From IMG/VR virus record IMGVR_UViG_3300008117_000651, positions 1-30,348 of that record: DNA of 30,348 bases; one strand, written 5' to 3'. This stretch comes from a virus. Below, piece by piece: positions 22,785 through 30,348 of the stretch. The notes under the pieces are model-generated. The model was not told where the DNA came from, did no database searches, and was given only the letters and a program-made list of their open reading frames with translations. Every line of letters starts with the position of its first letter. Position 1 is the stretch's first letter. Both the position numbers and the translations under genes were made by a program.

Positions 22785-23040
22785 CTAAAACTTCTTCTAC
22801 TATTTCTTCACCATCGCCTTGAGATGCTGCTACTAGCACGTTGGCTAGCATAGTCAATAATACCTGAGCACCATCTGTATTTGTCTTATTGGTTTCGTAT
22901 ATGTCTCTTAATGCTGAGAGTAAATCTATGCCTCTGCGTTCTGATACTGGCAGCCCAATTATTAATGGGTTTTCTTTTATATAACCCCAGACTCGCTCCA
23001 TTTCTTCTCTATCCTCCCAAGCATTTTCTGATTTTGTCAT
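22771..23040 (-). CDS. Small acidic phage protein, 89 aa
   Basis: ATG 23040 lies 32 nt inside the end of the TOPRIM primase gene. The protein is acidic and helical, with WEDREEMERVWGYIKENPLI and VLLTMLANVLVAASQGDGEE. No domain recognised. Its placement between primase and the DUF1599 gene suggests a small replication accessory factor. Confidence 0.7.
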   Translation of the reverse strand: MTKSENAWEDREEMERVWGYIKENPLIIGLPVSERRGIDLLSALRDIYETNKTNTDGAQVLLTMLANVLVAASQGDGEEIVEEVLDEGH

Positions 23041-23638
23041 CTAAAAATTGTACTCCTTCCTGTATCACAATGCTATTTACATCGTGTCCTTCTGGCATTT
23101 GAACTATGTTTACGTTGCCTAACTCACGGCTAATCTTTTTACCAAACTCTAGTCCTGGGGCATCACCATCTGCTAGAACTATGACTACTTCAAAATCATC
23201 TAGTATCTTGGTGTAATACGGCTTCCAATTGTTAGCCCCTGGTATGCCTACTGCTGGGTGATTTGTTTTGACTGCAACTGTTACACAATCTATTTCACCT
23301 TCGGTTACACATATGTATTGGTTTGCTGTTAGTACTGCTTGTGCATTAAACATTGTAGTTTTAGCACCAGGTAATCCTATATATTTAGGGTCCTCACCGT
23401 GGATGCTGCGAAAGCGTAAGTCAACCACACCTGATGGTGTTGTGTAAGGTATTACTAACTTACCCTTGTAGCCTTCGTGACCTGGTAATGGATTGTCCAC
23501 TACTCCTAAATGAAACTTCTTTGCTTCTTCTACCGACAGACTCCGTGTTGCCAGATAATCTGTGGCTTGATGTATGTGCTGGGCGTATTCTTGTGTTGCC
23601 TGTAGGAGAAATTGCCTCTGCGAATTTGACAGCCTCAC
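23009..23638 (-). CDS. DnaG-type primase, TOPRIM/catalytic part
   Basis: 209 aa from GTG 23638, preceded by the SD AAGGAGGT (23646-23653) with 7-nt spacing. Residues about 5-47 (RQFLLQATQEYAQHIHQATD then SVEEAKKFHLGVV) match the DnaG core linker; LVIPYTTPSGVVDLRFRSIH and PKYIGLPG follow. TOPRIM motifs are TEGEID (112-117) and DGDAPG (157-162), which carry the conserved acidic residues. It synthesises RNA primers for replication. The N-terminal zinc domain is encoded separately and upstream, in another frame with 179-nt overlap. It lacks the C-terminal helicase-binding domain of bacterial DnaG. Confidence 0.85.
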   Translation of the reverse strand: MRLSNSQRQFLLQATQEYAQHIHQATDYLATRSLSVEEAKKFHLGVVDNPLPGHEGYKGKLVIPYTTPSGVVDLRFRSIHGEDPKYIGLPGAKTTMFNAQAVLTANQYICVTEGEIDCVTVAVKTNHPAVGIPGANNWKPYYTKILDDFEVVIVLADGDAPGLEFGKKISRELGNVNIVQMPEGHDVNSIVIQEGVQFLDDKIRKCLGG

Positions 23639-23852
23639 GATAGTTACCTCCTTCTCTTTGCATAATTAAATCATAGACATCGCCACCGACTCCACAACCG
23701 TGGCACTTGAATCTTTCCTCTGTGAAATTAACACCTGCTGATGCGTGTTTATCTGGATGAAAAGGACAGCGCATTTTTCGCCAGCCACTGCCCACAGCAG
23801 GCAGGCTGGCGCCTATATGTTCTAAGTAAGCAGCAATGCTGTGCTTATCCAT
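23460..23852 (-). CDS. CHC2 zinc-finger part of the DnaG-type primase
   Basis: 130 aa from ATG 23852. Residues 28-53 carry the CHC2 zinc ribbon (CPFH at 29-32, CHGC at 50-53), followed by GGDVYDLIMQREGGNYREAV. After about residue 82 the protein loses family character (SPTGNTRIRPAHTSSHRLSG and on), because the conserved primase sequence continues in the +1 frame as the TOPRIM gene. The zinc domain of DnaG recognises template initiation sites. Either two proteins cooperate, or a +1 shift joins them. The last 48 residues are probably a tail without conserved function. Confidence 0.85.
   Translation of the reverse strand: MDKHSIAAYLEHIGASLPAVGSGWRKMRCPFHPDKHASAGVNFTEERFKCHGCGVGGDVYDLIMQREGGNYREAVKFAEAISPTGNTRIRPAHTSSHRLSGNTESVGRRSKEVSFRSSGQSITRSRRLQG
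23646..23653 (-). promoter_or_regulatory. Consensus ribosome binding site inside the CHC2 gene
   Basis: AAGGAGGT, a full match to the anti-SD core, lies within codons 67-69 (EGG) of the CHC2 gene and 7 nt before the GTG of the TOPRIM gene. It supports independent initiation of the second primase half and decides its start. Confidence 0.85.
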
Positions 23853-24441: not shown

Positions 24442-25260
24442 TTAATTTCCGTATACTGTCTCTTGCATATATTTAACTTGAACATCATCTAAGTACATAT
24501 TGTCTGGGTTAAAGGCAAGGCTGACATAATTGTTACCTGTCTGGTCTGCTCGTCCATATCTGTTCTTGACTGGGGCTACACAGAGATAGGTCTCGTCTCC
24601 TTGTTTCATTTGTCCTATAGTCAAAACCATTGCTGGTATCTGATTTACTAGACCTTGAATAGCATTACGTGGCTGGCAAGGATAGCCATCAAATCCTTCT
24701 TTAGTATGGTGCAGAACTAATACTGCTGAGTTGGTATCTCTTGCAAGATACTTTAACTCTTTCATAGCAGCACGCATACCTTGGAATTCTTCGTGTCCAT
24801 CCATTGCTATATCCATCAAGTTATCTACAACAATAAGCGTAGGACTTCTACCCCATACAGTTTCAAATGCAGATACTTCTTCATCTAAATCTTTTAGTGT
24901 TGGTGTAGATTCAAATGACCAGAACAAATGATTGTTCATAACCAATACTTCTTCTGCTTGTTTTGGGTCACGCTTTAGTAATTGTTCTGCTGCTTGTTGA
25001 GATATATGACTAGACATTGCTACTAATCGCATAGCCATAGTGTGAGCGTTGGTATCTGCACTGAAATAAAGTGTAGGTACTTTTGCTCTGGCTGCTATTG
25101 CTAATGCTATTGATGACTTACCTGCACCTGGGGTGCCTGCAATCATTGTGATTTCTGCACGGCGCAGAATAATTCCTGCTCGTTCAAACGCCGCAAAAGC
25201 GGGTGGCAATGGTTCGCCACCCACCTCTGCTTTGTTGATGCTACGTTTTAATGTACGCAT
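24442..25260 (-). CDS. DnaB-like RecA-fold helicase ATPase
   Basis: 272 aa; ATG 25260 directly follows the TAA of the upstream gene. Walker A is GTPGAGKSS (42-50), Walker B is TLIVVD (141-146), and a sensor-like strand LVLHHTKE lies at 181-188. A basic NRYGRADQ near the end can supply the arginine finger. Sequence and order fit the C-terminal ATPase domain of DnaB-type replicative helicases without the N-terminal primase-interacting domain, as many phages have. With the split primase next to it, it probably unwinds the replication fork. A related recombination ATPase is the alternative. Confidence 0.8.
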   Translation of the reverse strand: MRTLKRSINKAEVGGEPLPPAFAAFERAGIILRRAEITMIAGTPGAGKSSIALAIAARAKVPTLYFSADTNAHTMAMRLVAMSSHISQQAAEQLLKRDPKQAEEVLVMNNHLFWSFESTPTLKDLDEEVSAFETVWGRSPTLIVVDNLMDIAMDGHEEFQGMRAAMKELKYLARDTNSAVLVLHHTKEGFDGYPCQPRNAIQGLVNQIPAMVLTIGQMKQGDETYLCVAPVKNRYGRADQTGNNYVSLAFNPDNMYLDDVQVKYMQETVYGN

Positions 25261-25729: not shown

Positions 25730-26497
25730 TTACTCTAGTGGTGTAACGAGACCTTTCTTGTCTCGCCATTGTCTTACCTTCATTGCAAATTGTACTCCCT
25801 TCCAGCCTTCTGCTATGTCTATCCAAACTAATTTGCATAGACCAGTTCCTGCTGGTAAGTGAATGATAATTGCTTTTTCTTTGTTGACTTCTCCCCAACT
25901 ACCACGGGTTGCCGTCTGCACATCATAAGGCAACCCGTTAGCATAGATTGCTAACTGGATTGCTATATTATTTGGATGGTCTATACGACCTGTCTTTATA
26001 TCTGCAATGAATCTTTCACCTTTATATTCAACAAGTCTGTCTGGTGTGCCAGCAATCTTGAATTTATCTAGCACACAGAATTGTTCTATAAAGATTTTAT
26101 TTAGTTGCTTTGTTGTTTCTTCATAGGCTCGGATGTCCCCTGCCCACTCGTCTGGGATAGGTCCAAGTTCCTGTCCCAAATCTAGTTTTTCTGTAAATGC
26201 GTGAAGTGCTGTGCCGATAGTCGCTGCACGACTAGCACCTGCTACTTCCATAGCATCTTCTATATACTTGTTAATAGCCATCTTATCATCTTGCGATGCA
26301 TTGATTGCTAATAACAAATCACTTCGCACTGTTAATCCTATTGCTGCCATACGCATTTTCCAGGCGGTCAATGCTGATGGGTCATCAAGACTGTTGGCTA
26401 TTGTTGTAGCCCTAGTGTAAGCAATTGGCGTACCACCTTTAGGTGGCTTGACCAGTGGTCTTCCATATCTATCACGGTCTATTTCGGTACGTGCCAT
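25730..26497 (-). CDS. RecB/Cas4-type PD-(D/E)XK exonuclease
   Basis: 255 aa; ATG 26497, with AAGGAGAC 9 nt upstream and AAGGAC closer. IGTALHAFTE (94-103) supplies the conserved His and Glu, GTPDRLV (150-156) the first Asp, IADIKTG (164-170) the D-x-K pair, and QLAIYA (181-186) the QxxxY motif. Together they are the RecB/Cas4 nuclease signature. It probably processes DNA ends in recombination and replication. No four-Cys cluster is seen, so no iron-sulfur centre. Its mRNA has a 192-nt structured leader whose loop is complementary to its own SD, suggesting translational control. Confidence 0.85.
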   Translation of the reverse strand: MARTEIDRDRYGRPLVKPPKGGTPIAYTRATTIANSLDDPSALTAWKMRMAAIGLTVRSDLLLAINASQDDKMAINKYIEDAMEVAGASRAATIGTALHAFTEKLDLGQELGPIPDEWAGDIRAYEETTKQLNKIFIEQFCVLDKFKIAGTPDRLVEYKGERFIADIKTGRIDHPNNIAIQLAIYANGLPYDVQTATRGSWGEVNKEKAIIIHLPAGTGLCKLVWIDIAEGWKGVQFAMKVRQWRDKKGLVTPLE

Positions 26498-26689
26498 TGG
26501 GTCCTTGTCTCCTTGTTAGAGAGACGGGCTGATAAAGGAGACTAATCATAAACCAGCCCGTCTTCTTGAGTGAATGGTATCAGACGGAAGGAGATATGAC
26601 ACCATTCGCATCGGCGTGGTTTTGACAATCACACAATCTCCTATGCGCCCAGATGGAATCTAGACGCCTGTGTGGTTGTCTACCAAAAA
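26498..26689 (-). promoter_or_regulatory. Structured non-coding leader with anti-Shine-Dalgarno loops (candidate sRNA or translational switch)
   Basis: This 192-nt stretch lacks a convincing gene and can form three hairpins. H1 pairs 26624-26635 with 26669-26680 (12 bp with one G-U). H2 pairs 26572-26578 with 26601-26607 (7 bp, extended after one mismatch). H3 pairs 26522-26531 with 26554-26563 (10 bp, GC-rich). On the minus transcript the H3 loop shows GUCUCCUU (26542-26535), an exact complement of the SD AAGGAGAC at 26514-26507 of the downstream nuclease gene. The H2 loop shows AUCUCCUU, which can pair with AGGAGAU inside H1. Structure and complementarity are seen; regulatory action is inferred. 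Confidence 0.6.
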
Positions 26690-27157: not shown

Positions 27158-27393
27158 ACTGTCTCCTTTTGTTTGTTTAATTCATCAGCCATATCTTCTG
27201 CTATCTTGTATGTATCACCAACAAATACTGGTGGTGGAACTTGAACTGTTGTTCTTGTAAAACGTTGCTCGTTATACCATTTACTCCACGCAGAAAAACG
27301 AACAACAATATGTTGATGTGATTGTACAAAACCCTTAGATAGACAAGCATCGTGATAATGTCCACCTGGACTTGTAGTTATATAGTAATCCAT
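27154..27393 (-). CDS. Small phage protein, 79 aa, unknown
   Basis: ATG 27393 with the recurrent SD cassette TAAGGAGACTAACA. It is aromatic and His-rich near the N terminus (DYYITTSPGGHYHDACLSKG, SHQHIVVRFSAWSKWYNEQR), followed by a helical Lys/Glu end. No family recognised. The 4-nt overlap with the next gene indicates coupled translation. Confidence 0.7.
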   Translation of the reverse strand: MDYYITTSPGGHYHDACLSKGFVQSHQHIVVRFSAWSKWYNEQRFTRTTVQVPPPVFVGDTYKIAEDMADELNKQKETV

Positions 27394-29359: not shown

Positions 29360-29379
29360 ATAGTCTCCTTTGTTGGTTG

Positions 29380-29466
29380 TTAGATGTATTGGTATCCACT
29401 ATGGTATGGCAAGTGGCAGCCGTGGTACAACATCATTTCAGGTTTCCCTGCTGATTGACTATACAT
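29380..29466 (-). CDS. Possible 28-aa peptide in the gap before the transglycosylase gene
   Basis: ATG 29466 opens MYSQSAGKPEMMLYHGCHLP and stops at 29380, 21 nt before the ATG of the next gene. Cys and His residues are close (HGCHLPYHSGY), but there is no SD, and the frame lies in an inverted-repeat region. It is listed because the 189-nt gap (29360-29548) holds no other coding candidate except a 16-codon frame. Low confidence. Confidence 0.2.
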   Translation of the reverse strand: MYSQSAGKPEMMLYHGCHLPYHSGYQYI

Positions 29467-29475
29467 ACCAATACA
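29385..29475. repeat. Inverted 11-bp repeat with a third partial copy
   Basis: TGTATTGGTAT (29385-29395) is a perfect inverted copy of ATACCAATACA (29465-29475). A partial copy (ATACCAATT) lies at 29540-29548, touching the end of the transglycosylase gene. Spacing is too long for a terminator; operator-like binding or an attachment-type site is possible. Confidence 0.6.
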
Positions 29476-29548
29476 TTTAGTTGAGCAGTTTTAAGTCATA
29501 CTCAGGACTATCGGCGCTATCGCTGCTTTAGCAGTATGCATACCAATT

Positions 29549-30260: not shown

Positions 30261-30348
30261 TGTCTGTCTCCTTGTCTAGGTCATCGGCTACATATACTCT
30301 GCCTGTGGCTAAGAGTTCATCATATACATCAAGCAGGTCAAGCATCGC
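30244..30348 (-). CDS. Partial small phage protein at the right edge
   Basis: The frame is open to the right edge and ends with TGA at 30244, overlapping the next gene by 17 nt. An ATG at 30345 would give 33 aa (MLDLLDVYDELLATGRVYVA and so on), but the true start may be outside the window. It is acidic and helical, and its last codons contain the SD (AAGGAGAC) of the next gene. Confidence 0.6.
   Translation of the reverse strand, partial: AMLDLLDVYDELLATGRVYVADDLDKETDNAKYE

Follow-up and report, generated by a model that had tools for sequence, protein, structure and literature searches.

A conserved hairpin in a viral leader presents the complement of early-gene Shine-Dalgarno sequences and may silence earlier-stage genes

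Which ribosome-binding sites are addressed by an RNA loop that displays the complement of a Shine-Dalgarno (SD) sequence? The question is raised by a leader in an IMG/VR virus record of 30,348 bases, analysed here over its whole length (the window), that lies directly ahead of a gene for a Cas4/RecB-like PD-(D/E)XK exonuclease (Table 1). A preliminary description proposed that this leader folds into three stems on the transcribed strand, and all three were found, each far more stable than its shuffled counterparts (z scores of -5.1, -5.0 and -5.0 for hairpins 1, 2 and 3, respectively), as was the whole leader when compared with shuffled sequence (z -6.0). The leader had also been taken for the only sizeable gap within the early genes, which proved to be wrong, a second gap of about 190 nt being present at 29360-29548. 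There, on the same minus strand, a long imperfect hairpin (TGTATTGGTAT / ATACCAATACA) is followed by a AAGGAGACTA-type SD. The RNA of the leader is both structured and conserved and carries an anti-SD loop, and no named RNA family has such a layout: in agreement with the earlier statement, Rfam 15 gave no match at the gathering threshold for the window and five relatives, and no credible match for the window at either strict or loose thresholds. A search with the leader DNA against annotated phages likewise returned no match.

Table 1. Features of the leader and of the putative target sites, in window coordinates
Feature	Coordinates	Strand	Remarks
Leader	between 27157-26690 and 26497-25730	-	flanked by gene 27157-26690 and the exonuclease gene
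Hairpin 1, small Cys-rich ORF remnant	26624..26680	-	AGGAGAU at 26642-26636
Hairpin 2 / inverted repeat	26572..26607	-	right arm holds the -10; arms vary and stay complementary (main clade)
Candidate extended -10 TGATACCAT	26574..26582	-	predicted RNA start near 26567
Hairpin 3, conserved element	26518..26566	-	loop 26551-26534; z -5.0; folds in 74/74 distinct leaders
Loop segment UUAGUCUCCUU	26535..26545	-	reverse complement of early-gene SDs
Cas4-like gene SD AAGGAGAC	26507..26514	-	8-nt loop match
Cas4/RecB-like PD-(D/E)XK exonuclease gene	25730..26497	-	PHROG 466 exonuclease, E 6.5e-61
Putative target SD AAGGAGACUAA	27396..27406	-	gene 27393-27154; exact 11-mer
Putative target SD AAGGAGACUAA	28922..28932	-	gene 28920-28378; exact 11-mer
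Putative target SD GGAGACUAA	28394..28402	-	DUF932 gene (Pfam), start 28394; best duplex, -20.7 kcal/mol
Putative target SD AAGGAGACUA	29361..29370	-	gene 29359-28931
Putative target SD AAGGAGAC	27161..27168	-	gene 27157-26690 (family F0); F0 switches with the loop between clades
Putative target SD AAGGAGAC, weaker	30266..30273	-	gene 30260-30057; -12.9 kcal/mol, equal to the cis SD

Relatives of the Cas4-like gene were collected from the viral collection (the best 80 of 244 were fetched), and a second scan, started from a distant Cas4-like member, gave 80 loci. By inspection the element is visible in 94 of 96 distinct upstream regions, the exceptions being L070 and L325. When the leaders were folded with the loop core kept unpaired by constraint, hairpin 3 formed in every one of 74 distinct leaders, with a stem of 11-17 bp and a loop of 15-20 nt. 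In the alignment, 10 of the 11 predicted pairs of this hairpin show one or more changes of both partners by which pairing is preserved; compensatory change among relatives, which the preliminary description had named as a check, is thus evident in the hairpin-3 stem. The loops divide the leaders into two clades, main (..UUAGUCUCCUUU) and distant (..GGCUAUCUCCUUU). A generic search of viral contigs for GTCTCCTTT, a gap and then AAGGAGAC gave, among the listed matches that were inspected outside Cas4-like leaders, only scattered ones lacking the layout, so the element appears to be bound to the Cas4-like gene context. The closest annotated Cas4-like genes (those of McProf, Dulem virus 32 and Issmi) have no such leader gap, the host genomes searched contained no relative, and no earlier description of such an element was found in the open-licence literature.

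The loop of hairpin 3 had been reported as an exact 8-nt complement of the SD of the gene that follows it, and so it is: GUCUCCUU (26542-26535) is complementary to the cis SD AAGGAGAC, 20 nt onward. What was missed, and is the strongest fact of the present analysis, is that loop 3 is a better match to SDs of other early genes than to the cis SD. Two early genes have as their SD the exact 11-nt loop complement AAGGAGACUAA, whose only other occurrence in the window is on the opposite strand, as the loop, and partial matches are located at the early SDs at 29370, 28402, 27168 and 30273. The window contains three copies of AAGGAGACTAA against 0.01 expected, and eight copies of AAGGAGAC against 0.57 expected. 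AAGGAGAC is found at the early SDs at 30273, 29370, 28932, 27406 and 27168 and at the Cas4-like SD at 26514, with a further copy within a gene at 24602. The gene after the Cas4-like gene has the SD AAGGAGAAGATA. With the loop, five of the six early SDs form duplexes of -15.0 to -20.7 kcal/mol, compared with -12.9 for the cis SD; one downstream gene, 2393 nt on, reaches -16.3 through other pairs, so that energy alone is no proof. The main partner of loop 3 appears to be the SDs of earlier genes, elsewhere than in cis.

Phages of the distant clade have the loop CUAUCUCCUUU. The prediction that their early SDs would accordingly read AAAGGAGAUA was set down before these were examined; it held for the first four distant contigs and then for the larger set, AAAGGAGAUA being the early SD of that clade. 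The base that follows GGAGA in early SDs is C at 169 sites and T at 18 in the main clade, as against C at none and T at 126 (of 135 early SDs) in the distant clade. Seven early orthologous gene families common to both clades switch their SD, and for F0, the gene directly before the leader, the shift extends over 3-4 positions, from GGAGACTAA to GGAGATAGA or GGAGATAGC; family F1, directly downstream of the Cas4-like gene, has GGAGAA or GGAGAG in 36 of 36 distant members. As judged by duplex energies, the early SDs of a clade are matched better by the loop of that clade than by the other clade's loop, and the downstream SDs of the distant clade show no bias towards their own loop. The excess of T at early over downstream genes in the distant clade gives a Fisher p of 3e-20 with relatedness ignored; because the contigs are related, the key covariation represents in effect largely one evolutionary split, seen at several genes. 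GGAGAC is also fairly frequent at downstream genes of the main clade, at 35 of 72 GGAGA sites. One-base loop variants within the main clade (UCGUCUCC) were considered as additional covariation and rejected, the early SDs not matching them, while L242 and L251 combine altered loops with relaxed SDs. Under the SD pairing rules a U after GGAGA can pair with 16S rRNA past one mismatch, which could by itself favour GGAGAU; the distant clade is also somewhat lower in G+C (0.40 vs 0.44 in the main clade), a difference that gives no account of the change from T to A at the following position.

A candidate promoter adjoins hairpin 3. The motif TGNTANNNT, which comprises those positions that are invariant in an extended -10 element, is present directly ahead of hairpin 3 in 73 of 74 leaders. 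The arms of hairpin 2 vary strongly in the main clade yet remain complementary, with the -10 in the right arm invariant, and in the distant clade this hairpin is small or absent. A simple promoter consensus scan did not report the -10 site, since it also demands a -35. The preliminary description had assigned a second anti-SD motif to the loop of hairpin 2; this motif, AUCUCCUU (26595-26588), is indeed present in the window but is not conserved among leaders, and the hairpin-2 loop was rejected as a conserved anti-SD. As the extended -10 ends just before hairpin 3, the recombination/replication transcript probably begins there, placing the hairpin at its 5' end. No terminator was found after hairpin 3, so the element would be a leader, perhaps processed out, and a stand-alone small RNA is not obvious. 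Also on the minus strand, at 23009-23852 of the window, the DNA primase appears spread over two ORFs that overlap in different frames, one with the zinc-finger part and the other with the Toprim part; this pair may reflect a split gene, a frameshift or a sequence error.

We lean towards the view that hairpin 3 is a leader-borne antisense silencer of earlier-stage genes, acting through a dedicated SD sequence. Located in the leader with which the recombination/replication transcript begins, the hairpin would show in its loop the reverse complement of the early-gene SD of its own lineage, AAGGAGACUAA in the window's group and AAAGGAGAUA in the sister group. Once the leader had been made, the loop would pair with early SDs, either in trans or by long-range contact on a polycistronic transcript, and this pairing would block ribosomes, so that early genes would be turned off as the replication genes came on. 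The Cas4-like gene and the next gene would be spared strong repression, since the match of their SDs to the loop is confined to the core. The conserved hairpin, the repeated SD code, the exact complementarity and the parallel change between clades can be read directly from the sequences; transcription from the -10 site, pairing in vivo, the silencing outcome and its timing are inferred.

The proposal originally made for this locus was of a translational switch in cis, between a pseudoknot that hides the Cas4-like SD and loop-loop pairs that free it. On this reading the pairing of loop 3 with that SD would create an H-type pseudoknot and repress translation until the SD is freed by a ligand, a protein, the ribosome or an alternative pairing. 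The anti-SD loop and the conserved RNA on which it was built have stood, and besides the exact 8-nt cis complement there is a workable pseudoknot spacing and a hairpin that always adjoins the Cas4-like SD; pairing between loop and cis SD is kept in most of the main clade, and in the L023 group it is longer by one C-G pair. For the distant clade the pseudoknot itself is harder to uphold. Loops of that clade call for T after GGAGA, and this base, present in the early SDs, would extend the pairing, but the cis SDs listed have A, G or C and never T, retaining the generic core alone. Moreover, the distant cis duplexes show no preference for their own loop (-11.9 vs -11.6), and a cis switch leaves unexplained the extended SDs common to other genes. 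As to the alternative pairing, the AGGAGAU in hairpin 1 is present as described, but its pairing with loop 2 is not conserved. Overall, regulation of the Cas4-like gene by such a switch seems unlikely.

Hairpin 1 was rejected as a fixed part of the leader, as it belongs to a small ORF found in only part of the family. Relatives have in this region a Cys-rich ORF of 50-59 residues, of which the window keeps only a decayed tail; in L019, L039, L040, L076 and others the ORF lies at about -260 to -80 relative to the Cas4-like start and overlaps with an RNA hairpin. Codons 38-40 are AGG AGA CNN in all 35 distinct small ORFs. The two Arg codons never vary, whereas every one of the five amino acids that the CNN box can encode is seen at residue 40, and five different codons are used for the preceding Leu. 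The invariance of AGG AGA C despite a variable residue 40 points to a constraint at the RNA level, and the AGGAGAC is mostly single-stranded (0.81 vs 0.39 on average). Taken together, these two properties make a contact between hairpin 1 and loop 3 plausible in part of the family, and on the simplest reading loop 3 (GUCUCCU) would dock on AGGAGAC in read-through RNA. The same complementarities would also allow regulation in the reverse direction, with abundant early mRNAs holding the loop off the cis SD and the Cas4-like gene being translated for as long as they are plentiful, a role in which the exposed AGGAGAC of the small ORF could take part. Such an arrangement needs a strong cis lock, which is not maintained in the distant clade, and we consider it improbable. 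There is equally little likelihood that the early SDs are set by something else, such as translation efficiency or a phage protein binding start regions, and that the loop is complementary to them as a derivative or mimic of the SD region: other actinophages do have repeated SD-like motifs with no known complementary RNA, as no anti-SAS was seen in K2 TM4, K3 Pixie and cluster EF AnnaSerena, and the Adephagia authors speculate that the protein gp51 acts on SAS genes (PMC11373665), but neither the strongly covarying hairpin that presents an exact complement in every leader nor the parallel changes at 2-4 positions would be accounted for.

If hairpin 3 is indeed an antisense silencer, then one loop, sited in the leader of the next block of genes and matched to the co-evolved SD of a whole early set, would be the equivalent, at the level of translation, of the early/late transcription switch. 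Antisense loops blocking a single ribosome-binding site are already known in phages. It would also make testable the reason why some actinophages keep over-conserved 'start-associated' SDs. It is tempting to go further and, quite tentatively, to imagine that these actinophages encode a stage switch in translation, in which the early stage is marked by an SD code and the leader hairpin of the next stage serves as the anti-code that silences the whole set. In some phages the AGGAGAC bulge hairpin in the small gene might then mask the loop on read-through RNA, leaving only RNA from the internal promoter active, and a convergent form of the switch might explain the reverse SAS copy of K1 mycobacteriophages discussed below.

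Several known systems share individual features with this leader. In Staphylococcus aureus, hairpin loops of RNAIII complementary to several SDs repress several mRNAs; unlike hairpin 3, RNAIII is bacterial and long, and its targets are not known to have co-evolved as one SD code. The ar14 small RNA family (RF02344) resembles the leader in having hairpins with CUCCU-rich anti-SD loops, but ar14 is an alphaproteobacterial family, and the match scored 26.5 bits against a cut-off of 58.8. Likewise, DUF2815 RNA (RF03084) consists of a hairpin followed by an SD and AUG, as here, but scored only 14.3 bits (E 1.8), the cut-off being 41.2. The loops of the c4 antisense RNA of phages P1 and P7 pair around a ribosome-binding site and block translation (reviewed in PMC12197685). 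Hairpin 3 is likewise a phage RNA element whose loop is complementary to the ribosome-binding region, with exact matches of up to 11 nt and co-variation between clades; whereas c4 acts on one antirepressor mRNA, the hairpin-3 loop matches many early SDs and is housed in the leader of the next block of genes.

The SAS motifs of cluster K mycobacteriophages, with in K1 one reverse copy away from gene starts (PMC3203893), resemble the early SDs described here, in that extended SDs are over-conserved at numerous non-structural genes; whether SAS is bound by RNA or by protein was left open in the original study (PMC3203893). The sequences are different, SAS being GGGATAGGAGCCC, a start-site motif that the early SDs here (AAGGAGACUAA or AAAGGAGAUA) do not carry, and the hairpins are unrelated. 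The cluster K ESAS has a promoter within an inverted repeat, a layout similar to that of hairpin 2 and its homologues. An anti-SAS loop was rejected as a general explanation of SAS: K2 (TM4), K3 (Pixie) and cluster EF (AnnaSerena) yielded none, and K4/K6-type loops (Cain, Amgine) have two mismatches. Most subclusters, unlike the hairpin-3 leaders, are without a complementary loop. Amgine gene 95 (L262; 60967-61620 of the record) is an annotated ORF that spans conserved non-coding leader hairpins, probably through an annotation error. In Adephagia and Angelica the reverse SAS copy is located in the loop of a strong hairpin, and its CTCCTATCC core is similarly placed in Anaya and SgtBeansprout; the K1 copies lie at L256:43683 (about 58682 of the Adephagia record) and L257:38635, and also in L261 and L263. 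The Adephagia hairpin lies between genes 92 and 93, the region reported as the start of late transcription (PMC11373665). As a lead only, the K1 layout may thus follow the same logic as that proposed here for hairpin 3, a later leader carrying a loop directed against earlier SDs.
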